This document shows, piece after piece, positions 13,443 to 47,833 of a stretch of 52,576 bases of DNA. The stretch covers positions 1-52,576 of the forward strand of contig JAICEE010000002.1 in NCBI GenBank assembly GCA_025924355.1, in the 5' to 3' direction. Positions within the stretch are counted from its first letter, which is position 1; each line of letters starts with the position of its first letter. The translations under genes and the position numbers were made by a program. A model generated the notes under the pieces. That model saw only the letters and a list, made by a program, of their open reading frames with translations. It searched no databases and was not told the DNA's origin. The DNA is from Nitrososphaera sp. (GTDB lineage: Archaea; Thermoproteota; Nitrososphaeria; Nitrososphaerales; Nitrososphaeraceae).

Positions 13443-15074
13443 ATGCCTGCTCAAATGAAGGTTCATCCCTCATTTTTCAAGGAATTCGCCACTAAAACCT
13501 GGGTCTCCCCCACAGAGATTCTAAAGGAGCTTGTAGAGAATGCCTTTGATGAGGACGCAACAAAAGTTCTTGTCACTGTCCTGAGCAATGGTTCTATTGT
13601 TATTGAAGATGACGCAGGAATGGATCAGAGCGGAATGGAGAAATTTCTGCTTTTGGGTTCTCCTCATAAAAGAACCGAATCAGTTTCACCTAAGCTTAAA
13701 AGAATTAGAACAGGCAGATATGGTACAGGCAGACTATCCTTCCTCACATCCTTTGAGAGTATGAGAATAAGAACAAGACGTGAAAGTTTCACGAAAGCGC
13801 TTGCCATCAATGCAGGTGTGCTTGAAAGGCTCTATAGGGGCAATGCGAGGCTCGATGACCTAAAAGAGCCTCACCTTAAGCGAGACGGAACAGAACTTGT
13901 CATGAGTGGGGCAAAGACCCAACTGGACATATTCAAAATAATGAAAGATATCCGAAAATTAGCAGTACTAAGGCAGCCGCTATTTGAAGTATACATTAAA
14001 ACTGCCGAGAAATTCAAAGAGTGGAATTTTGATGGTTCTCAGATTATTAAGGCCCCTGAAATTCAAGGGCACAGGATACCACTCAACCTAGACGGCGGCA
14101 AATTAACTGGCGAAATCGTTATTGCTAGGAGACCACTATCTGACGACGAGCGCGGAATAGCTGTCATGGTTGGAAATCATATCGTGATGCGCAGCAATTT
14201 TGGCTTTGACACAAAGCTGAACCGTGTGACAGGCTTTGTCAGATGCGACAGCCTGACGACTAGGTTCGCTGACAAGTCTGCAATCATTGAGGATAGCGAA
14301 TATGCCAAATTCAATCAGCTCATGAAAACCTTTGTCATTGATAGAGTCATTCCTGGTTTGACTGAATACGAAGACGTACTGATAACTCGGGAAGAATCTA
14401 GGATTTATCGCGAAATTGACAAGATACTTGGACAGGCCATGATCGAAAATCTAGAACTTGAAGAGGAGGTACAAGGATACGAGATGGTGCAAATAAGAGA
14501 ACGAGTGAGGCCTACTCTCGCTCAGGAAGATGAAAAGCATCGACATAAGGTGCATTCTGATGACAACCAGCAAATCGCAGAGTCTGAGGAGACCCACCTG
14601 ACCTCTCTTGAGAGTTCCGCACTTTCCGAGGCAGATCGTACACGACCACATGCTGTCACAGAACCGTATGCTTCAAGCAGCCTAACTAACATGCCTGAAG
14701 GGATAGCCGGAGAGGTGGTGAATGAAACACAGACCGACGGCTCTGTAATTAAGACAATGAATGTACGTAAGCCAATACTAAAGAAGACATTTGCACTCAA
14801 GAGGATAGGCTACAAGGTAATCCCATATGAAGATGAAAGTGATTCGCGATACAGCTTTATTACTGAGAATATTGTGTTTGTAAATAAAGCCAATCCAACT
14901 TACAGGGCTGAGGCCACAAGAGGAGATGAATTCCTTATGAGGCACGTCATAAGCATTGTTGCTGAGGCAGTGGCGCAGGCAAAACACCCAGAAGGTAAGG
15001 ATGCCCTTGAGTTACAGAATAGGCTTGTTGCTGACGCCATCAGGATACACGACACCAACGTAACAAAGCGTTAG
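13443..15074 (+). CDS. GHKL (Hsp90/MutL/MORC-like) ATPase-domain protein
   Basis: N-box EILKELVENAFDEDAT, G1 EDDAGMD, G2 GRYGTGRLSFL. Confidence 0.8.
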   Translation: MPAQMKVHPSFFKEFATKTWVSPTEILKELVENAFDEDATKVLVTVLSNGSIVIEDDAGMDQSGMEKFLLLGSPHKRTESVSPKLKRIRTGRYGTGRLSFLTSFESMRIRTRRESFTKALAINAGVLERLYRGNARLDDLKEPHLKRDGTELVMSGAKTQLDIFKIMKDIRKLAVLRQPLFEVYIKTAEKFKEWNFDGSQIIKAPEIQGHRIPLNLDGGKLTGEIVIARRPLSDDERGIAVMVGNHIVMRSNFGFDTKLNRVTGFVRCDSLTTRFADKSAIIEDSEYAKFNQLMKTFVIDRVIPGLTEYEDVLITREESRIYREIDKILGQAMIENLELEEEVQGYEMVQIRERVRPTLAQEDEKHRHKVHSDDNQQIAESEETHLTSLESSALSEADRTRPHAVTEPYASSSLTNMPEGIAGEVVNETQTDGSVIKTMNVRKPILKKTFALKRIGYKVIPYEDESDSRYSFITENIVFVNKANPTYRAEATRGDEFLMRHVISIVAEAVAQAKHPEGKDALELQNRLVADAIRIHDTNVTKR

Positions 15075-15164: not shown

Positions 15165-15767
15165 ATGGCGTTTGCAGAATTCATGCCAGGGGCGACAGTA
15201 GTAGGCATATCCTACAATGATGGCGTTATATTAGCAGCGGACAAAAGAGTTTCATTCGGGAACTTTGTAGTGAATAAGAATATCAAAAAGACATTTTCAG
15301 TAACGGACCATGTTGGAGCCGCATGTGCTGGCATGGTCGCCGACATGCAGGTGCTTGTAAGGCAGGTCGAGGCATTGGCCAAGATCCGGAAGCTGGAGAC
15401 GAGACGTGATGTTCCTCCAAACTCAATCGCAAAGTTAATGTCCGTAATTATGTTCGAGAGAAGATACTTTCCACTGCTAACTCAGGTCATTGTGGGCGGT
15501 ATCAGCGAAAAACCTGAAATCTATACTCTTGACCCACTTGGTTCAGTACTGCCTGATGACTATGCTGCAGTAGGTACAGGAGCAGAAGGGGCACTTGGTA
15601 TTATGGATGCAGAATTTAAGCCAAATATGTCTGAAGAGGCAGTTACAGAATTGGCTTCCAGGGCTATCAGGTCTGCGACCCAACGCGATGCTGCAAGTGG
15701 AGACGGGATCGATATATTGTATGTAACGAGAACTGGCCATAGGGAAGAAACAAGAAGACCTTCCTAA
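15165..15767 (+). CDS. psmB: Proteasome beta subunit, apparently lacking catalytic Thr1
   Basis: MPG|ATVVGISYNDGVILAADKR ... KNIKK (K33) ... QRDAASGDGID. Confidence 0.93.
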   Translation: MAFAEFMPGATVVGISYNDGVILAADKRVSFGNFVVNKNIKKTFSVTDHVGAACAGMVADMQVLVRQVEALAKIRKLETRRDVPPNSIAKLMSVIMFERRYFPLLTQVIVGGISEKPEIYTLDPLGSVLPDDYAAVGTGAEGALGIMDAEFKPNMSEEAVTELASRAIRSATQRDAASGDGIDILYVTRTGHREETRRPS

Positions 15768-19615: not shown

Positions 19616-21433
19616 CTATTCCCTTGCTTCGTCGATATAGAATATCGCCTCATTTCTCTTGACAGCAGCGCCTGATGCAAGATTTAATGCGGCCCTGCAA
19701 AGTTTGACATTGTCTGGTTCTAAACCTTCGCTGTTCCCTGCAAGCACTAAATACAGCCTTATACTCGAGCCAAGTACGTCACTCAGTTCTTGGTTTATAG
19801 TTGCAGTGTATGGTCGAAGCGCTCCGCGGAAAACATCTGCCCTTGCCCTCACCAAACCAGAGATCTTTTTACCAACAGGTGCATCAGGGCCTACTATGAT
19901 AATAGCACCTTTAGAGTCTTTGAATTTAGTAGGGTCCTGAACTGAGCCCTCTGGGGCTATAGCATTCACACCTTCTTTGGTTATCAGTCCAGGAATGTAG
20001 ATGAAGTTATCAACCAATGCATCCCATTGTTTTCTTGAAAGTGAACTCAGAGGTACGTTATAGTCATAATCCCCTGTAAAGTGGATGATTGAATCAATCC
20101 TACTGGACCTTTTCTTCGCAGCATTAAATATTCGATGAACACTTTCTTCATCTAGCATGTCGATCGTGTGGTTGTGATATTCAACAAATTGGGTCATGTC
20201 TTGATGGTTGTGTGCAAGTACGATTACATCCTTGGCTCCAGCTCCGCGCACGAGGTTTGCAAGTTCCTTTACTCTTTCGGTGTCCCTCTTTGCTGACGAG
20301 CTGGTCGTAATAACTATAACTTTTTCTCTGACATCAGGCTGCGCTAAGCCATCAACTGCCGTGCCGACTACGGGTTTGACAGGATAGAATACGCGGTCAT
20401 TTGGAATGACTCTCCCATTTATTAACCTACTAATATTGTCATCGCATAAATTCATGACCATGTCTGCTACCTCTTCCTGCTTCAAGAATTCCCCGTCTAC
20501 TATCATCTTGCTCGTATTGCTTTGGATCTTTTCGGCAATCTCTTGCATCTTCGCAAGAGCGCCTGCGACAGTCTCTGATAATTTGTTGATATTCTCCTCC
20601 TCTGGAGCCTGACCACGAGAGATAGAGATCTCCCTCGCAACTTGTGAGACCCCTTCTGATACTACATCGGCAGGCTCACCTAGTAGCGGAAGCGCTCCAG
20701 CAGTAACCTTCTCAATCTCAACAGAGCTTAGCCCAGGATAGCCTCCAATCCGTAGAAACTCTGCTGCAGCCTTTGGGTATACTGTCTTGTAAATCCTATC
20801 GGAGTGGACAGGCCCTGGGTTTGTTGCAATAGATCGTATATCGCGTTCTGCAAGCTCCCAAGCCAGTGCTTCCGCAAGACGGTTCTTGGCGCCCTGCGCA
20901 GCGGTATAGGGTGTTCTAAACCTATATGGCCTCTGCTCATAGCGATTTTCCTCTGTGAAAAACGTTGCAATTGTGATTATCTTTGAACCTCTTTTCATAG
21001 CACTTAGACCGCTGATAGATGTCCAGTATGTGCCGGTAAGATGTATGGCAACGGCCTCACGGAACTCCTTTACGCTTGCATTGGTAAATGTCTTGACAGG
21101 TCCTGACACACCAGCATTATTTACTATTATATCGACTCCACCGAACTTCTTCCGAATATTTTCAAACATAGAATTAATCCCGGCCTCATCGGCAACATCT
21201 ACACCTGGAAAAACGCCCAACTTGCCGGAAGAACCCGAAGAAGCAACTATTTCCTCTAAGATGCCTGCAGTATGGTCCAGTGGCTCTTTCCTCCTGCCCA
21301 TGATGATAATATTGGCGCCGTTCTCGGCGAACTTTCTAGCTATTGCCTGTCCGATACCTGTTCCACTGCCGGTGATAACTACTGTTTTATCAGTAAATTT
21401 TAAACTAGACTTGGAAGATACTTGCTTTTCCAC
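19616..21433 (-). CDS. Tandem SDR-like oxidoreductase, 605 aa, resembling the malonyl-CoA reductase N-terminal half
   Basis: Rossmann motif VVITGSGTGIGQAIA, VNNAGVSG, NPGPVHSDRI; second SDR-like unit VIVITTSSSAKRDTERV... without GxxxGxG. Confidence 0.85.
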   Translation of the reverse strand: MEKQVSSKSSLKFTDKTVVITGSGTGIGQAIARKFAENGANIIIMGRRKEPLDHTAGILEEIVASSGSSGKLGVFPGVDVADEAGINSMFENIRKKFGGVDIIVNNAGVSGPVKTFTNASVKEFREAVAIHLTGTYWTSISGLSAMKRGSKIITIATFFTEENRYEQRPYRFRTPYTAAQGAKNRLAEALAWELAERDIRSIATNPGPVHSDRIYKTVYPKAAAEFLRIGGYPGLSSVEIEKVTAGALPLLGEPADVVSEGVSQVAREISISRGQAPEEENINKLSETVAGALAKMQEIAEKIQSNTSKMIVDGEFLKQEEVADMVMNLCDDNISRLINGRVIPNDRVFYPVKPVVGTAVDGLAQPDVREKVIVITTSSSAKRDTERVKELANLVRGAGAKDVIVLAHNHQDMTQFVEYHNHTIDMLDEESVHRIFNAAKKRSSRIDSIIHFTGDYDYNVPLSSLSRKQWDALVDNFIYIPGLITKEGVNAIAPEGSVQDPTKFKDSKGAIIIVGPDAPVGKKISGLVRARADVFRGALRPYTATINQELSDVLGSSIRLYLVLAGNSEGLEPDNVKLCRAALNLASGAAVKRNEAIFYIDEARE

Positions 21434-21519: not shown

Positions 21520-21915
21520 CTAACCCCTTTTTTGAACCATATTCTTAATGTGTATGGCTATCCTGTCTGCAATTTCGAACATGGCCGCATCGAATACAAG
21601 GTTCTCCTCATGGACCCATTTGCCGTAGATCCTGATATTGTCCTCTTGTGGGTCAACCGTTATTTCGCCTACCTTCATTATGACTTCCTTGAGCATGCCT
21701 GTGAGAGTAGCGTCCGCTTGTAACACCTGTGCGAAATTGTCCTCGCCTGTCCACTTGACATCGATCATGCGCCTACTATCGAAATATCCTTTTGTTATCG
21801 GTTTACATCTTGCTAGAAATTTATCGTTATCATTGCTTTTTATCTCCAGTATAAAGTGGACGTGATAATACTGGAGAGGACCATATGGCAACGGAGTTGG
21901 GTCTATATTTGGCAT
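21520..21915 (-). CDS. Hypothetical protein (MPNIDPTPLPYG...)
   Basis: ORF; ATG at 21915 probable start; co-directional with purKE. Confidence 0.6.
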   Translation of the reverse strand: MPNIDPTPLPYGPLQYYHVHFILEIKSNDNDKFLARCKPITKGYFDSRRMIDVKWTGEDNFAQVLQADATLTGMLKEVIMKVGEITVDPQEDNIRIYGKWVHEENLVFDAAMFEIADRIAIHIKNMVQKRG

Positions 21916-21919
21916 GCTC

Positions 21920-22240
21920 TTAATTCCTCTGCAGTAACTGGACAAAGTCAATGTTTTTACCTTTGATCTTCACCAAGCCCTTGTTCGTGACGAATTTAGG
22001 TGACATTGAAAAGTTCTGGCTGTAATACTGTTTACGTTCAAAAGGGTGCGAGCCAAGCGGAAGTGATTCACCGTCAATCTGGCTTAGCTTCATTTCTTCT
22101 GCCATCTTGTCATGTACAGAGACTTTCTTTATTATGACGGGATCGATATCTCCATTGTCATGGTCTTCTTCGTTTGATTTAGCTCGAGCAAAATGAATAG
22201 TTTTGTGCTCCACAAAGAGCATACAATTCTGCAGCCACAA
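21920..22240 (-). CDS. Hypothetical protein
   Basis: ORF adjacent (4-nt gap) to the next gene. Confidence 0.55.
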   Translation of the reverse strand: MWLQNCMLFVEHKTIHFARAKSNEEDHDNGDIDPVIIKKVSVHDKMAEEMKLSQIDGESLPLGSHPFERKQYYSQNFSMSPKFVTNKGLVKIKGKNIDFVQLLQRN

Positions 22241-38282: not shown

Positions 38283-38642
38283 TCAGCCCTTAACTGGCTC
38301 GAAAAAATAATAGGGAGTACCATTAGGCCTCACGCCACACCTCACCATTTTTACCTTTGAGCCATCTTTTAATTCTAGCGTATCAAACGATCCAATGAGT
38401 TTAATTCCTGACATTTCAACAAGACCGTAGCAACCTTCCGTGCCCTTTAGATATGACATTGTGAAATACACCAAAGTACCACTTGTATCAATAATTTGAA
38501 GTGATGTCTTTGAGAGACATTGAGGGCAATAATAGGATGGTGGCCATACTTTTGCCTTGCACGAAGTACAGACGGGCAGTCGAAATTTGCCTCTACGCAG
38601 GCTATCAAAAAATTCCTGCAAGACATCATACACCCATAACAA
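38283..38642 (-). CDS. DUF35 zinc-ribbon/OB-fold protein
   Basis: LPVCTSCKAKVWPPSYYCPQCLSK rubredoxin-like ribbon plus OB-like C-terminus; overlaps thiolase gene. Confidence 0.88.
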   Translation of the reverse strand: MLWVYDVLQEFFDSLRRGKFRLPVCTSCKAKVWPPSYYCPQCLSKTSLQIIDTSGTLVYFTMSYLKGTEGCYGLVEMSGIKLIGSFDTLELKDGSKVKMVRCGVRPNGTPYYFFEPVKG

Positions 38643-39723
38643 TTACCGAGGCTGAGGATCCAGCTGCCGCTAGGTTGTGGACAAGCCCTGTCTTGCAATT
38701 CTTTACTTGCCTCTTTTCTGCTTTTCCAGCAAGTTGAGACGCGATTTCGGCGACTTGCGCCACACCAGTAGCTCCAACAGGATGGCCACATCCAAGTATA
38801 CCTCCTCTTGGGTTTATCGCTATTTGCTGTTGGTTGACGAATTTGCCTCCTTCACCTCTCTTTGCAAATCCTAGATCTTCATATGCTATGATTTCTAGAA
38901 TAGTAAACGCATCATGAAGTTCTGCAATATCTATCTGTGATGGCTTTGTATGTGACCTTTCAAAGGCTATTTGAGCGGCCTTTCTGGCCGATTCAACAGT
39001 TGTGAGATCAGGTGAGGCTTTTGCAAAGCTGGCTGAGATTGTCTGCTGTCCTATTCCCTTTATGAAGACAGGATTGTCCAGCGTGCGCGCTTTTTCTTCA
39101 GATACCAACAGTATCGCTGATGCTCCCTCGCATGGGGCGGAGCAGTCTAGTAGTTTGATAGGAGATGCAATACTTTTTGATTTCATCACTTCTTCTAAGT
39201 CAACTTCTTTTCCAAAAAGAGCGCGAGGATTCTTGGTGGCATTTTTATGGTTCTTAACGGAGACCATAGCCATCTCTTCTTCAGTCGTGCCGTATTTTTT
39301 CATGTGAGCTTTTGCAAAAATTGCGGCCCAATGTACTGGAAACATAAACGAACCCCTAGTGACATCCCATAGCAGTTTGTTACCAGGACTGTCTATCTTT
39401 TCTGTACCGACCACAAGTGCCATGTTACACAAGCCAGAAGCAATAAAGGCAAAAGCAGAAGCCACAGCATTGGTGCCTGAATTGCAGAGATTGTCTATGC
39501 GATGAGAGATCCTTGGACTTATACCAAGCATCTCAGATACTATTGCAGAGCTGTATTGATCGGCCGCACAGCTAGAGAACAATACAGCATCAATTTCATT
39601 TGCAGGTATGCCGTTATCTCTTATTAATTGTACCGAAGCCTCGCAGGCCAGGTCAAAAACAGACTTCGTTGTCCCTTTGGTAAAGGTTGAAGTTGCCCAC
39701 GAGGAGACTGCTACCTTGCGCAT
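38626..39723 (-). CDS. Thiolase family protein (archaeal acetyl-CoA C-acetyltransferase-like)
   Basis: IDNLCNSGTNAVASA nucleophile region, ELHDAFT, GGILGCGHPVGATG. Confidence 0.9.
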   Translation of the reverse strand: MRKVAVSSWATSTFTKGTTKSVFDLACEASVQLIRDNGIPANEIDAVLFSSCAADQYSSAIVSEMLGISPRISHRIDNLCNSGTNAVASAFAFIASGLCNMALVVGTEKIDSPGNKLLWDVTRGSFMFPVHWAAIFAKAHMKKYGTTEEEMAMVSVKNHKNATKNPRALFGKEVDLEEVMKSKSIASPIKLLDCSAPCEGASAILLVSEEKARTLDNPVFIKGIGQQTISASFAKASPDLTTVESARKAAQIAFERSHTKPSQIDIAELHDAFTILEIIAYEDLGFAKRGEGGKFVNQQQIAINPRGGILGCGHPVGATGVAQVAEIASQLAGKAEKRQVKNCKTGLVHNLAAAGSSASVIVMGV

Positions 39724-42209: not shown

Positions 42210-42610
42210 CGAATAATTTGAATGACGAGTCATTCGCAAATTTGTGTGAAGCATTGCTCCATTTCCTACTGACTGCTTCCTTGCTTCCTTCCGAGAGAAA
42301 GGTCACCTGGAAAGGCGCAGAGTTGGATCTGGTAATTCCTTCTCTGAAAATGCTGAACAAAAGCCCGGATAAAACTCTAGTAATTCAAATAATAAAAGGA
42401 AATGAGGTGCTTACAAAGATAAAAGATGCTAAATCTGTCCAACCTCACGACGGAAATATATGGACTGTCTCTGCAAAGCAACTAGAAATAGATCATAAAA
42501 ATTATTACGTTGGTTCAAGTCTTTTTCCATATCCGAGGATCATCATAGATATCAATGCCTTTCTCCTTCAAAAGGGAGATCGTGGACTCAAGCTTTTACA
42601 TGGACAGTAA
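42206..42610 (+). CDS. Hypothetical protein, possible divergent restriction-nuclease-like fold
   Basis: WKGAELDLVIPSLKML...KTLVIQIIKGNEV (D...QxxK-like). Confidence 0.6.
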   Translation: MTNNLNDESFANLCEALLHFLLTASLLPSERKVTWKGAELDLVIPSLKMLNKSPDKTLVIQIIKGNEVLTKIKDAKSVQPHDGNIWTVSAKQLEIDHKNYYVGSSLFPYPRIIIDINAFLLQKGDRGLKLLHGQ

Positions 42611-43294
42611 CATTTCAAAGTCCAAATTATCTTCTATCATCTTGCCAATAGAAGCGTAATTTGCTCCTTTTGAGAATGGGATTACAGCTAATAGTTTCAT
42701 CTGTGTGAGCCTCTCAAGAATTTCTGCTGTTTTTTGCTCCACCATATCAGGTTTTTTAGAAGCTTTGTTCAAAATTATTCCTGCAATTTTGAGGCGGAAC
42801 TTTTGACATGCCAGTACTGTGAGTAATGTATGGTTGAGCGTCCCAAGCTCCGGGGTAGAGACGATTATTAAGGGCAATTCTGCTCGCTTTGCAAAATTTA
42901 CAACAAATTCATTTTCATTCAAGGGAACCATGATACCACCTATCCCTTCGGCAATTAGAAAATCATGTTTTCTTTCAAGCTTTTTCAGCTTTTGCAAGGC
43001 TTTTTCCGTATCGACTGGAGGGCTATGCTTTAGCTCTGCCGCTACCAAAGGCGAGGCGGCTATTGAGTAAAAAAATGGATTAAGGCTGCAGTCAGGATCG
43101 TTTACACCAGAGGCCCTGGCAAGTATTGCAGTATCTTGAGACCTATATTTTCTTGAAAAAACTCTGTTACCTGTTGCAAAAGGTTTCATGATGCCAACTT
43201 CAATTTTCCGCTTCCTCAGTGCCCAGGCGAGACCTGCAGCAACTGCTGTCTTACCCACTCCTGTGCTCGTACCTGTTATGAAGATACCACGCAT
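42596..43294 (-). CDS. bioD: Dethiobiotin synthetase (track start 43318; MRGIFITG at 43294 preferred)
   Basis: GIFITGTSTGVGKTAVAAGLAWAL; AEGIGGIMVPL. Confidence 0.94.
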   Translation of the reverse strand: MRGIFITGTSTGVGKTAVAAGLAWALRKRKIEVGIMKPFATGNRVFSRKYRSQDTAILARASGVNDPDCSLNPFFYSIAASPLVAAELKHSPPVDTEKALQKLKKLERKHDFLIAEGIGGIMVPLNENEFVVNFAKRAELPLIIVSTPELGTLNHTLLTVLACQKFRLKIAGIILNKASKKPDMVEQKTAEILERLTQMKLLAVIPFSKGANYASIGKMIEDNLDFEMLLSM

Positions 43295-43339
43295 GGAAAT
43301 ATTATTACAGCCGAGCATAAAACATGGATATCACCCGAA

Positions 43340-44677
43340 TTGGATCTGACAAAGGGGGACAAAGAGTTTGTTTGGCATCCGTATACACAGATGAGGGATT
43401 GGACGAAATGGAATAATAGAGTAATCGTCAAAGGAGATGGCTTTTACCTGGTTGACAGTATAGGGAGAAAATACCTCGATGGCAGTGCCAGCATGTGGTG
43501 CAATGTCTGGGGGCATACACACAACAAAGTAGTTCAGGCGATGATAGAGCAGCTAAAAGAGGTCCCACATTGTACTCTCTTTGGCTTAGCCAATGCTCCA
43601 TCCACAATGCTTGCCGAAATACTGGTCAGGCTTGCAAGGGGGATGCATAAGGTTTTCTATACCGACAACGGCTCAACTGCCATTGAGGTTGCAATGAAGA
43701 TAGCTGTTCAATATTGGCATAATAAGGGCAAACATCAAAAGAAGGATTTCATCTCGTTGGAGCACGGCTATCATGGCGACACAATTGGCGCTATGTCTCT
43801 TGGTTACATTGAGAATTTTTTTAGAGCATACAGACCGCTTCTGTTGGATGTGCACAGAGTGCCAAGCCCTCTCCTCTATGGAAGCAAATTTACAAATGAA
43901 AGCGATTTAGTAGAATGTTGTCTTGAGAAAACCGAGAGTACGCTTAAACGACACAAGGACCGATGTGCGGCACTGATTATGGAAAGTGGGGCTCAGATCG
44001 CAGGAGGGGCAATTATTTTCCCTACAGGATATCAGAGAAAGATAGCAAAGCTGTGCAGAGATTATGACGTATTGCTAATTCTAGACGAGATTGCAACCGG
44101 ATTTGGAAGGCTTGGTAACATCATAGAATATATTGCACAGAATTCTCAACCAGACATCGTATGCTTTGGAAAAGCCTTGACTGGAGGCTACTTCCCGCTA
44201 GCTGTCACTCTTGTTACACACTGTATTTTTGATGCCTTTTTGGGAAAATATCGTTACAACAAACACCTATACCACGGCCACACCTTTACTGGGCATCCTG
44301 TAGGTTGCGCCGCTGCTCTCGCAAACATAGAGAATTACCAAAACCGTAATCTGACTCAGCAAATAAAAGTGAGCACTGAATATATAGCATCAAGGCTGCC
44401 TGAATTTTCGAAGTCTCCCATAGTTGCTGATATCCGACATAAGGGTCTTCTTGTAGGAATCGAGCTGGCAAAGAACAACAAGCCCCTACTCACCTTGAAA
44501 AATAAAGAGATCACAAACTACTTTATAATGCAACAATCGCTAAAGATGGGTGTATATCAGAGGCCTCTTGGCAATATTATGCTCCTAATCCCGCCTCTTG
44601 GGATTACAAAGACAGATCTCGAGAAGCTGGTCAATGTACAGCTTAAGTTGTTGAGAAAGATGGAAAAACTATCCTAA
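43340..44677 (+). CDS. bioA: Adenosylmethionine-8-amino-7-oxononanoate aminotransferase (TTG start)
   Basis: FVWHPYTQMRDW; FYTDNGSTAIEVAMKIAVQYW; LDEIATGFGR; FGKALTGGYFPLAVTL. Confidence 0.95.
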   Translation: MDLTKGDKEFVWHPYTQMRDWTKWNNRVIVKGDGFYLVDSIGRKYLDGSASMWCNVWGHTHNKVVQAMIEQLKEVPHCTLFGLANAPSTMLAEILVRLARGMHKVFYTDNGSTAIEVAMKIAVQYWHNKGKHQKKDFISLEHGYHGDTIGAMSLGYIENFFRAYRPLLLDVHRVPSPLLYGSKFTNESDLVECCLEKTESTLKRHKDRCAALIMESGAQIAGGAIIFPTGYQRKIAKLCRDYDVLLILDEIATGFGRLGNIIEYIAQNSQPDIVCFGKALTGGYFPLAVTLVTHCIFDAFLGKYRYNKHLYHGHTFTGHPVGCAAALANIENYQNRNLTQQIKVSTEYIASRLPEFSKSPIVADIRHKGLLVGIELAKNNKPLLTLKNKEITNYFIMQQSLKMGVYQRPLGNIMLLIPPLGITKTDLEKLVNVQLKLLRKMEKLS

Positions 44678-45262
44678 TTCTCTCAATTTCTTGTACAGTG
44701 TAGCTTTTGACATACCTAGACTCTTAGCTATTTTTGTTTTTGAGTTATTCTCTGCAAGCAAATTAATGAGTTTATCCTTGTCAATTATCTTTTGGGGCCG
44801 ACCTATGTCTTTCCCTGCCGCTTTGGCTCGGTCCATCCCATCCTTTGTCCTCTGGACTAGTAGTTCACGTTCTCTCTCGGCAGCCCATGTCAGGATGCCG
44901 ATCATAAGCTTTCTGATACTAGCTTCTGTCGTTTGGAGAAAAGATTCTCTAGGCGAGCATGAAATCAAAGAGGCATAGCGCTCTACTGCCTTTATGGCAT
45001 CTAACGTATCCCAGAAAGTTCTTCCAACTCGGGATAATTCATAAACTAAAACAGCATCTACTCCAGTCATTTTTACCAGTTCAAGCATTTCCTGAAATCC
45101 ACGCCTTTGAGTAGCGGGAACCTTACCGCTTATTGCAGGATCTTCAAAAGAGTCAAGGATCAGGTAACCATTTCCTTGCGCCCATTTTTCGAGTACAAGC
45201 TTCTGATTCTGGACAGTCTGTTCTTCTGTGCTTACACGCAAATATGCAAAGGCATATTTCAT
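44669..45262 (-). CDS. Serine recombinase/resolvase with C-terminal HTH
   Basis: YLRVSTEEQTVQNQ; YELSRVGRTFWD; GRPQKIIDKDKLINLL...SKTKIAKSLGMSKATLYKKLRE. Confidence 0.92.
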   Translation of the reverse strand: MKYAFAYLRVSTEEQTVQNQKLVLEKWAQGNGYLILDSFEDPAISGKVPATQRRGFQEMLELVKMTGVDAVLVYELSRVGRTFWDTLDAIKAVERYASLISCSPRESFLQTTEASIRKLMIGILTWAAERERELLVQRTKDGMDRAKAAGKDIGRPQKIIDKDKLINLLAENNSKTKIAKSLGMSKATLYKKLRELG

Positions 45263-45623
45263 ATATCATCGTGAGTGCCCCCCTATAATTGTCTCGTTGT
45301 CAAGAAAAGTGTTCAAAAAGGGTTGCACGAATAAATGGACATCGAGATCATGAGCTCCAAAAGACAAGAGTAAAAAAATGGTGCTATTTTTTGTGCCGTA
45401 TAGAAAACGTTCCATTTATGAACTGTTCTGCAATGTCCCATTATGTAACGAAAACCGCCATTCTGCTTTCCATACCTAACAAGAAATGATCTATCAACCG
45501 GTGGCTCTTTTTGACTTGCCAAAGCCCCCCTTTTTACCTTGTTTTTGAAAAGTACATAACTTATTAAATTAATAAAAGATGAATTTACTTTTGGTCTAAA
45601 TACGTTGTATCCAAACTACCACA

Positions 45624-45655
45624 AGATATTTCTAAATTCGAATTTAGAAATATCT
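45624..45655. promoter_or_regulatory. 32-bp perfect palindrome AGATATTTCTAAATTCGAATTTAGAAATATCT, candidate bio operator
   Basis: Read directly; upstream of bioB TATA-like aattttaatt (45681). Confidence 0.8.
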
Positions 45656-45714
45656 CCTTAGATGAAGGCCTTCGAACAGAAATTTTAATTACCGGCTCCA
45701 ACTTGCCTGACGTT

Positions 45715-46686
45715 ATGAGGGATTTGGCCTTCGTTCGGGATTGTACGAAAAAAGTACTTGCCGGTCGCTCAATTACCTTTGAAGAAGCAGAGGGTCTGCT
45801 TTGTACTGACGACATCGTGCTCCTTGCTGATTGTGCTAATACTATCACTCGAACGTTTAACGGTGATACGGTAGATGTCGAAGCTCTGGTAAATGCAAAA
45901 TCTGGCAGATGCCCAGAGGATTGCTCATTTTGTGCACAATCCTCATTCTACGATACTGGTATTAACAAATATCCATTATTGTCGAAAGAAGAGTTGGTCG
46001 AAAAGGCAGAAAAGGCCAAGGAAGAGGGGGCTACAAGTTTTTGCTTGGTATGCGCTTACAGAGATCCGCCGGAGAAGGACTTTCAATCTATCTGTAAAGC
46101 AATAGAAGAGATTAGATCCAAATTGGATATCGACGTCAATGTCTCTCTGGGGTTTATTACGTTAGATAGAGCGAGAAAGCTAAAGAAGCTGGGAGTCAAG
46201 CGTTACAACCATAACTTAGAAGCTGCAGAAAGCTATTTTCCTAATATCTGCAGTACGCATAACTTCTCTGACAGAGTAAATACTGCGAAAATTGTCAAGG
46301 AGGCAGGATTGCAATTGTGCTGCGGGGGTATCATAGGAATGGGCGAAACTCCTAGACAGAGACTAGAGCTAGCTTTCTCTCTTGCGTCACTTCACCCTGA
46401 GGAGGTTCCGATCAATATTCTAATAGGTAGAGAAGGGACTCCACTTGGGCGTGTTAAGCCGATGGATCCTACAGAGGCAATCAAGACAATTGCAGTGTGG
46501 CGTTTCATAATGCCAAAAACTATTCTCAAGATAGCAGGTGGACGGGAGGTGCATCTCAAGCATGATGATAAACTAGCTCTAAAGGCAGGCGCAAATGGTA
46601 TTATCACCGGCGGTTACCTGACCACAGGAGGAAACACGGCCAAAAAGGACATTACGATGATAAAAGAAATTGGGCTCAAGCCATAA
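45715..46686 (+). CDS. bioB: Biotin synthase (track start 45703 TTG; ATG 45715 preferred)
   Basis: Radical SAM GRCPEDCSFCAQSSFYDTGI; YNHNLEAAESYFPNICSTH. Confidence 0.96.
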   Translation: MRDLAFVRDCTKKVLAGRSITFEEAEGLLCTDDIVLLADCANTITRTFNGDTVDVEALVNAKSGRCPEDCSFCAQSSFYDTGINKYPLLSKEELVEKAEKAKEEGATSFCLVCAYRDPPEKDFQSICKAIEEIRSKLDIDVNVSLGFITLDRARKLKKLGVKRYNHNLEAAESYFPNICSTHNFSDRVNTAKIVKEAGLQLCCGGIIGMGETPRQRLELAFSLASLHPEEVPINILIGREGTPLGRVKPMDPTEAIKTIAVWRFIMPKTILKIAGGREVHLKHDDKLALKAGANGIITGGYLTTGGNTAKKDITMIKEIGLKP

Positions 46687-47833
46687 GACCACCTTCGTTA
46701 GAGATCAGCTTAATTCACTTGAAAAGAGCGGGTTATATCGTCGTCTTAGGACAGTGATTGCTAGAGGTCCGATGGCCAATGTCGACGGCAAGGAGGTCAT
46801 CAATCTTTGCTCCAATGACTATCTTGGGCTATCTCAAAACAAGCAAGTAATCGAGAAAACTATTACTGCGCTCAGTGAAGAAGTATCACAGTGTGCATCA
46901 AGATCAATTGCAGGCAACCATCCAAAAATGATTGAACTTGAAGGTCTGCTTGCATTCCATCGTGGGACAGAATCAGCCCTTCTATATCCTACAGGTTACA
47001 CTGCTAACTTGGGCGTAGTAACGACTATTGCAGACAAGAACTCAACAATATTTAGCGATGAGCTGAACCATGCTAGCATAGTCGATGCATGTCGGCTGAG
47101 CGGTGCGACAATTGTTGTCTTCCGACATAATGACACCGATCATTTGCAAGAATTAATGCAGCGCGGCAGCGGTAGAAAAATTGTGATAACGGAAGGTATC
47201 TTTAGCATGGATGGGGACATGGGAAAACTGGCAGAAATAAAGAGCATAGCAGACCATCACGATGCAATAACCATCATTGACGATGCGCATGGTGACTTTA
47301 TCTTTGGTCCCACCTTTTCAGGCCTGCCAGCTAAAATGGGAGTAAACTTCGATATCCATGTCAGCAGTATGAGTAAGGCGTTGGGTTGCTTTGGAGGCTA
47401 TGTAGCCACTACATTCCCAATTAGAGAACTGTTGATCAATACATCTAGGCAATTTATCTATACTTCGGCCCTGCCTGACCATTTATGCTCTGCAGCAATT
47501 GCTGCTATTCCAATAGCCAAAAGTGGATACTTGCAAAGGAGGCTTCAATGCAATATCCTCTATTTTTCAGAGGAAATCAAAAGGCTAGGATTTAAAGTTG
47601 GAAACTCTACAAGCCAGATAATTCCACTAATAGTTGGTAACGAAGCACAGGCCCTAGAGTTTTCTAAAGAATTGCTACAGGAAGGCGTTTTTGCTCAAGC
47701 AATTCGGTATCCGACGGTCAGAAAGGGTCATGCTCGCCTCAGAATTTCACTGAATGCCACACATCGCCAAGAACACTTGGATTCAGCGATCACGGCACTT
47801 GAGAATGCAGGCAGAATCACAGGCATCCTATAG
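46670..47833 (+). CDS. bioF: 8-amino-7-oxononanoate synthase (TTG start, overlaps bioB)
   Basis: INLCSNDYLGLSQNKQV; FSDELNHASIVDACRLSGA; IIDDAHGDFIFG. Confidence 0.94.
   Translation: MGSSHKTTFVRDQLNSLEKSGLYRRLRTVIARGPMANVDGKEVINLCSNDYLGLSQNKQVIEKTITALSEEVSQCASRSIAGNHPKMIELEGLLAFHRGTESALLYPTGYTANLGVVTTIADKNSTIFSDELNHASIVDACRLSGATIVVFRHNDTDHLQELMQRGSGRKIVITEGIFSMDGDMGKLAEIKSIADHHDAITIIDDAHGDFIFGPTFSGLPAKMGVNFDIHVSSMSKALGCFGGYVATTFPIRELLINTSRQFIYTSALPDHLCSAAIAAIPIAKSGYLQRRLQCNILYFSEEIKRLGFKVGNSTSQIIPLIVGNEAQALEFSKELLQEGVFAQAIRYPTVRKGHARLRISLNATHRQEHLDSAITALENAGRITGIL

Follow-up and report, generated by a model that had tools for sequence, protein, structure and literature searches.

The gene at positions 19,616 to 21,433 of the analysed stretch, a 52,576-nucleotide window from Nitrososphaera sp., codes for a 605-aa tandem short-chain dehydrogenase/reductase (SDR) which we regard, with slightly better than even confidence, as a candidate NADPH-dependent malonyl-CoA reductase (MCR) of the archaeal 3-hydroxypropionate/4-hydroxybutyrate (3HP/4HB) cycle, with succinyl-CoA as a possible second substrate. 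In soils and oceans alike, ammonia-oxidising archaea contribute greatly to CO2 fixation. That their malonyl-CoA reductase is not firmly assigned had been stated in an earlier note made from the sequence alone, and the literature agrees: in N. maritimus the gene has not been identified and the activities were measured in extracts (PMC6038301), the gap was restated for the same organism (PMC6964070), and a marker resource from 2026 contains no marker for the ammonia-oxidiser variant of the step (PMC12894919). No proposal of this tandem SDR for the step was seen in the main texts of open-access papers.

The earlier note gave the 605-aa reading frame its exact coordinates and left the strand unstated; the gene lies on the minus strand and begins with a GTG codon. 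Its features are as follows.

19616..21433, minus strand: whole gene of the 605-aa tandem SDR, from the GTG start codon at 21433 to the stop codon at 19616-19618, with intact orthologs
20756..21394, minus strand: catalytic SDR domain, residues 14-226 (Pfam adh_short_C2, 3e-38; AlphaFold model; top PDB sequence matches are MCRs)
21350..21373, minus strand: cofactor motif TGSGTGIG, residues 21-28, invariant in alignment A1
21041..21043, minus strand: H131, where the SDR tetrad has its Asn, His in 45 of 45 sequences
20963..20965, minus strand: T157, aligned equivalent of the catalytic Thr165 (MCR-N) and Ser731 (MCR-C), invariant
20906..20926, minus strand: YRFRTPY, residues 170-176, the YxxRxxY malonate-binding motif including the putative catalytic Tyr176, in 45 of 45 sequences
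20894..20896, minus strand: Q180, replacing the YxxxK lysine, Gln in 45 of 45 profile-found sequences and at 134 of 134 loci
20795..20821, minus strand: NPGPVHSDR, residues 205-213, with R213 corresponding to R773 of Chloroflexus MCR-C, in 45 of 45 sequences and at 134 of 134 loci
20414..20755, minus strand: helical insert or linker, residues 227-340, helical in both AlphaFold models
19619..20341, minus strand: second SDR-like domain without a glycine motif, residues 365-605 (AlphaFold models; full-length Foldseek match)
19766..19861, minus strand: best-conserved stretch of the second domain, residues 525-556, with R529, R531, R536 and R540 invariant in A1

SDR is the sole Pfam domain at useful scores, matching residues ~16-215 (adh_short_C2, 3e-38) and leaving the remaining chain unmatched, so that Asd/semialdehyde dehydrogenase domains are absent from the window protein. 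The two-unit layout described earlier is nevertheless confirmed, with the TGSGTGIG motif at residues 21-28 and a second unit devoid of the glycine motif, residues ~365-605, that folds and aligns as an SDR in the models. With its two SDR units the protein is far smaller than the bifunctional MCR of the K14468 type, which has ~1200 aa and four tandem SDRs, and its helical insert is possibly the counterpart of the MCR-C extra domain or of the MCR-N lid helices. The single-codon "stops" in orthologs L022 and L025, the two inspected of the few reported, fall on the edges of the coding matches or outside them.

In the PDB, the best two phmmer matches of the window protein are bacterial MCRs, 8hjw (6e-37) and 8hi4 (2e-36), and a 17-sequence profile again placed the full-length Chloroflexus and Roseiflexus MCRs in the first two positions; the Chloroflexus MCR query sequence is identical to 8hjw_A, and both MCR halves match the archaeal protein in sequence. 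The local MCR similarities quoted in the earlier note are therefore real. Two AlphaFold models were compared with the PDB by Foldseek, model 1 being that of the window protein (pLDDT 85.9, pTM 0.87) and model 2 that of a divergent ortholog from family f9 based on a deeper alignment (pLDDT 87.5, pTM 0.88), with the active-site loop having low confidence in both. For each model the top 25 matches were all MCRs, across both domains, with E values from 3e-26 to 1e-20 for model 1 and from 9e-28 to 4e-20 for model 2 and query TM-scores of 0.65-0.74, so the suggested homology to Chloroflexus-type MCR is borne out in fold as well as in sequence. Next came the tandem (3R)-hydroxyacyl-CoA dehydrogenase of MFE-2 (PDB 2et6), followed by single SDRs with E values near 1e-13. 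The MFE-2 enzyme likewise has two SDR units per chain but is a poorer fold match (TM 0.53-0.56), and YxxRxxY is absent from its aligned stretch. Both SDR units of MFE-2 (2et6) are catalytic. MCR-C and MCR-N were matched about equally by model 1, and the first 19 matches of model 2 were MCR-C or full-length MCR, with MCR-C the best; the predicted fold thus agrees best with the MCR layout and leans somewhat towards MCR-C, the half that reduces acyl-CoA, rather than MCR-N. Only generic SDR/epimerase matches were obtained in a viral fold library, and a tblastn search of plasmids found no bacterial full-length homolog with a match covering at least 80% of the query.

In Roseiflexus MCR, catalysis is carried out by Thr165-Tyr178-Lys182 in the N half and Ser731-Tyr749-Lys753 in the C half, the YXXRXXY motif common to both halves holds the malonate of malonyl-CoA, and activity is strongly reduced or abolished when the YxxxK lysine is changed to Ala in either half (PMC10470521). 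Residues T157, Y170, R173 and Y176 of the archaeal protein align with Thr165/Ser731, Tyr172/743, Arg175/746 and Tyr178/749, respectively, and T157, Y176 and the GPxxxDR arginine R213 are unchanged in all 45 profile-found sequences, while YxxRxxY is present in 45 of 45 archaeal family sequences against none of 40 ordinary SDRs. Structures of the R773A and R773Q variants of Chloroflexus MCR are, by their titles, among the PDB fold matches. Alignment of R47/R48, which follow strand 2, with the NADP-2'-phosphate Arg41 of Roseiflexus MCR-N (PMC10470521) suggests a site for the NADP 2'-phosphate at these arginines. The YxxxK motif does read YTAAQ, as had been noticed earlier, and Q180 is invariant; H131 occupies a position taken by Asn in MCR-N, MCR-C and the generic SDRs of the same alignment. 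Since Gln and His are each invariant in 45 of 45 sequences, the replacement of Lys by Gln and of Asn by His reads as a conserved change and not as decay. The supposed change of the catalytic Ser to Ala/Thr is no loss, because MCR-N itself has Thr at this position, with which the invariant T157 aligns. The active site described as altered is thus so with regard to the Lys and the SDR tetrad Asn, but retains the Thr, the Tyr and the malonate-binding Tyr and Arg.

Both MCR halves are tandem SDRs like the archaeal protein. MCR-C (PDB 8a30, 8j2b, 8hi5), in which the first domain is likewise the catalytic one, has in common with it the YxxRxxY motif, the Ser/Thr and Tyr and the GPxxxDR arginine, and the stretch from Thr to Tyr is only one residue longer in the archaeal protein. 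Unlike MCR-C, the latter is free-standing and carries the two replacements, its insert has ~115 aa compared to 150 aa in the MCR-C extra domain, its second-domain sequence is not recognisably related, and overall identity is 15-18%. MCR-N (PDB 8hi6, 8aew, 6k8v) shares YxxRxxY, the triad Thr and the GPIESDR/GPVHSDR similarity, but it is aldehyde-reducing, possesses both YxxxK and the Asn and has an active-site loop six residues shorter. The special kinship to MCR-N proposed in the earlier note is therefore not supported, with model 1 neutral, model 2 favouring MCR-C and the loop length close to that of MCR-C. The archaeal protein probably works like MCR-C, and is not filed in the bacterial MCR family because its size, number of domains and lysine position differ.

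From the observed fold, motif conservation, distribution and single copy we infer the substrate, chemistry and direction of the reaction as follows. NADPH would be bound by the first SDR domain and the malonyl carboxylate held by Tyr170, Arg173, Tyr176 and probably Arg213, the pocket being closed by the second SDR-like domain together with the helical insert. The thioester carbon would accept the hydride while Thr157/Tyr176 hold the oxyanion, after which CoA would leave and malonate semialdehyde would be released to a separate reductase. In SDRs of this kind the Lys-Asn relay recharges the Tyr with protons for alcohol formation. Because His131 and Gln180 replace this relay, the archaeal enzyme may stop at the aldehyde, a proposal that stands against the lysine requirement of Roseiflexus MCR (PMC10470521). 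The Metallosphaera malonyl-CoA reductase also reduces succinyl-CoA, and the archaeal protein could perhaps do the same.

Orthologs with 49-91% identity were detected in 28 of 41 genomes, the window genome included. A profile search of 200 genomes of the class found the tandem SDR in 145, one copy each and nearly always full length, so the gene is no artefact of a single assembly; AmoA was found in 139, the two occurred together in 138, and 54 genomes had neither. The only genome with AmoA and without the tandem SDR is 89% complete, and the seven with the opposite pattern, one of them the window genome with 66% completeness, are all from ammonia-oxidiser families. In a sample of 250 genomes from the phylum, the tandem SDR was confined to these families. 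The HpaB_N family, which includes 4-hydroxybutyryl-CoA dehydratase, is distributed more widely (157 genomes of the class sample), so the SDR follows the ammonia oxidisers more closely than HpaB_N does. The tandem SDR thus seems to be single-copy in all ammonia-oxidising archaea; it was found in 138 of 139 AmoA-positive genomes, and the protein, missing from the sampled relatives outside the ammonia-oxidiser families, is present across these families and not absent from autotrophic relatives. The co-occurrence with AmoA amounts to a single evolutionary event and alone cannot identify the function, as ammonia oxidation and 3HP/4HB autotrophy coincide in this clade. Genomes of families f10, f12, f19 and f20 (e.g. 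G033, G035 and G043) contain HpaB_N with neither AmoA nor the tandem SDR, and their HpaB_N protein is possibly a 4-hydroxybutyryl-CoA dehydratase.

In the window, the tandem SDR gene is located between a TauE/SafE permease gene and genes for two proteins without known function, with homoserine dehydrogenase and purE/purK/purC nearby. The neighbours vary between families, the closest conserved ones being TauE/SafE, homoserine dehydrogenase, a likely tRNA endonuclease and proteins without assigned function; no operon with 3HP/4HB cycle genes was observed and no cycle gene is among the nearest conserved neighbours. The adjoining 143-aa protein (21520-21951, minus strand) has no Pfam match, and its relatives, which are variously oriented, lie at most two genes from the SDR at roughly half of 80 loci. 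Elsewhere in the window, inspection by eye suggested a 543-aa GHKL-type ATPase-like ORF (13443-15074, plus strand) just ahead of an ORF resembling a proteasome beta subunit (15165-15767), an ORF resembling archaeal thiolase/acetyl-CoA acetyltransferase (38626-39723, minus strand), an enzyme type which the 3HP/4HB cycle employs as well, and a cluster resembling bioD, bioA, bioB and a bioF-like gene, as for biotin synthesis (42596-47833). Biotin is needed by the acyl-CoA carboxylases of the cycle.

The Sulfolobales malonyl-CoA reductase is an Asd-related enzyme. By analogy, Asd could moonlight as malonyl-CoA reductase in ammonia oxidisers, leaving the tandem SDR with another job, which we consider rather unlikely. 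In N. viennensis, Asd and GabD are putative cycle candidates whose abundance follows that of the cycle proteins, Asd rising with them under carbon limitation (PMC12542715). Against this, each of 16 ammonia oxidisers has one family-level copy of Asd, needed for amino acids anyway, with at most one other match per genome, low-scoring and LysY/ArgC-like, and the same single Asd is present in 14 of 18 relatives that do not oxidise ammonia. The tandem SDR would thus share step and cycle with the Metallosphaera sedula enzyme but belongs to a different protein family, and the 16 ammonia oxidisers lack a second family-level Asd. Aldehyde dehydrogenases (PF00171) were undetected in 12 of 20 genomes; G085, G105, G125 and G138, all without PF00171, are single-contig and 97-99% complete and carry AmoA and HpaB_N as well as the tandem SDR, and GabD is therefore no universal succinyl-CoA reductase in ammonia-oxidising archaea. 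Both rivals look weaker, Asd as one housekeeping copy and aldehyde dehydrogenase as missing from several complete genomes.

It is unlikely, too, that the protein acts on malonate semialdehyde (or succinate semialdehyde) and, like MCR-N, converts aldehyde to alcohol, even though its local similarities to MCR-N are real. The Tyr/Lys proton relay for alcohol formation is lost, and neither fold nor loop length favours MCR-N. This next step of the cycle already has a characterised enzyme in N. maritimus, the malonic semialdehyde reductase Nmar_1110 of the unrelated Fe-containing alcohol dehydrogenase (Fe-ADH) family, while Nitrosocaldus cavascurensis is reported to lack this characterised enzyme, and Nitrosocaldus has SDRs ~30% identical to Chloroflexus MCR (PMC5797428). 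A strong Fe-ADH, presumed to be of the Nmar_1110 type, was found in the tested genomes of families f1 and f9 but not in six of six f2 genomes (G025, G113, G116, G134, G166, G190) or in the sole f3 genome (G026). The latter genomes do possess the tandem SDR, which fits the N. cavascurensis report (PMC5797428), and the protein may have a wider role in some lineages.

The replaced Lys and Asn and the second domain without a cofactor motif would also be expected of a pseudoenzyme, or of a regulator that senses malonyl-CoA/NADPH and descends from an MCR-like reductase. We give this reading a low probability, because the cofactor motif, Thr, Tyr, YxxRxxY and GPxxxDR are all invariant, and the catalytic region is the best conserved: mean majority identity over 45 sequences is 0.91 for residues 154-190 and 0.98 for residues 203-226, compared to 0.59 for the second domain. 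Such a peak at the cofactor and active-site segments is expected where selection maintains catalysis or the tight binding of a ligand.

The second domain is a good structural match to MCR. In sequence, the hhalign profile comparison preferred an ordinary archaeal SDR (97%) to MCR SDR4 (6%) and SDR2 (0.5%), and no homology of this domain to SDR2/SDR4 was found by it; the tandem layout could have been inherited from an ancestor common with MCR, or the two SDR units could have been fused independently in each lineage. The CoA/substrate residues of MCR-C include Arg785, Leu795 and Arg799 of the extra domain and Arg1164 of SDR4. For the three arginines no recognisable counterpart was seen in a profile alignment that is weak in these regions, and the invariant Arg529/531/536/540 could substitute. 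In maximum-likelihood trees of the catalytic domains, the archaeal sequences group with MCR-N and MCR-C with support of 100/99 against 24 SDRs and 97/90 against 40 SDRs, and not in an unrelated SDR clade; the grouping survives removal of either MCR half (SH-aLRT 94 and 91). The branches are long, kinship to MCR-N and to MCR-C is not separated (81/34), and when the active-site-loop and GPxxxDR columns are left out the exclusive grouping is recovered in 12% of bootstrap trees. As good support needs the active-site columns, the tree was rejected as proof of MCR kinship and is used as supporting evidence only. Although the SDR superfamily is huge, the second domain resembles an ordinary SDR and the tree link hinges on those columns, it is very improbable that the protein is an ordinary SDR with an unrelated substrate, kept in the ammonia-oxidiser core for another reason, given YxxRxxY in 45 of 45 family sequences against 0 of 40 ordinary SDRs and the whole-length fold best matched by MCRs only.

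The assignment as malonyl-CoA reductase is favoured by the MCR-only fold matches, the invariant motifs, the co-occurrence with AmoA, the single copy, a measured step without a gene, and rivals that are non-dedicated or non-universal. It is weakened by the lysine replacement, the column-dependent tree, the second domain resembling an ordinary SDR, the MCR-C arginines without a recognisable counterpart and the lack of a cycle operon; with both sides counted, the balance tips modestly in its favour. The bolder proposal that one SDR without the SDR lysine carries out both the malonyl-CoA and the succinyl-CoA reduction in all ammonia-oxidising archaea, having arisen independently of the Sulfolobales enzyme and forming a third branch next to both bacterial MCR halves, is possible but doubtful.

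Though its function is putative, the tandem SDR is a solid and testable candidate for the missing enzyme of a globally important pathway, and, being single-copy and universal in the lineage, it makes the missing step testable with one expression construct. If the assignment is true, the gene would serve as a marker where pathway tools have none for the variant of the ammonia-oxidising archaea (PMC12894919), and the replaced lysine would revise which residues are held to be essential in the MCR/SDR active site.
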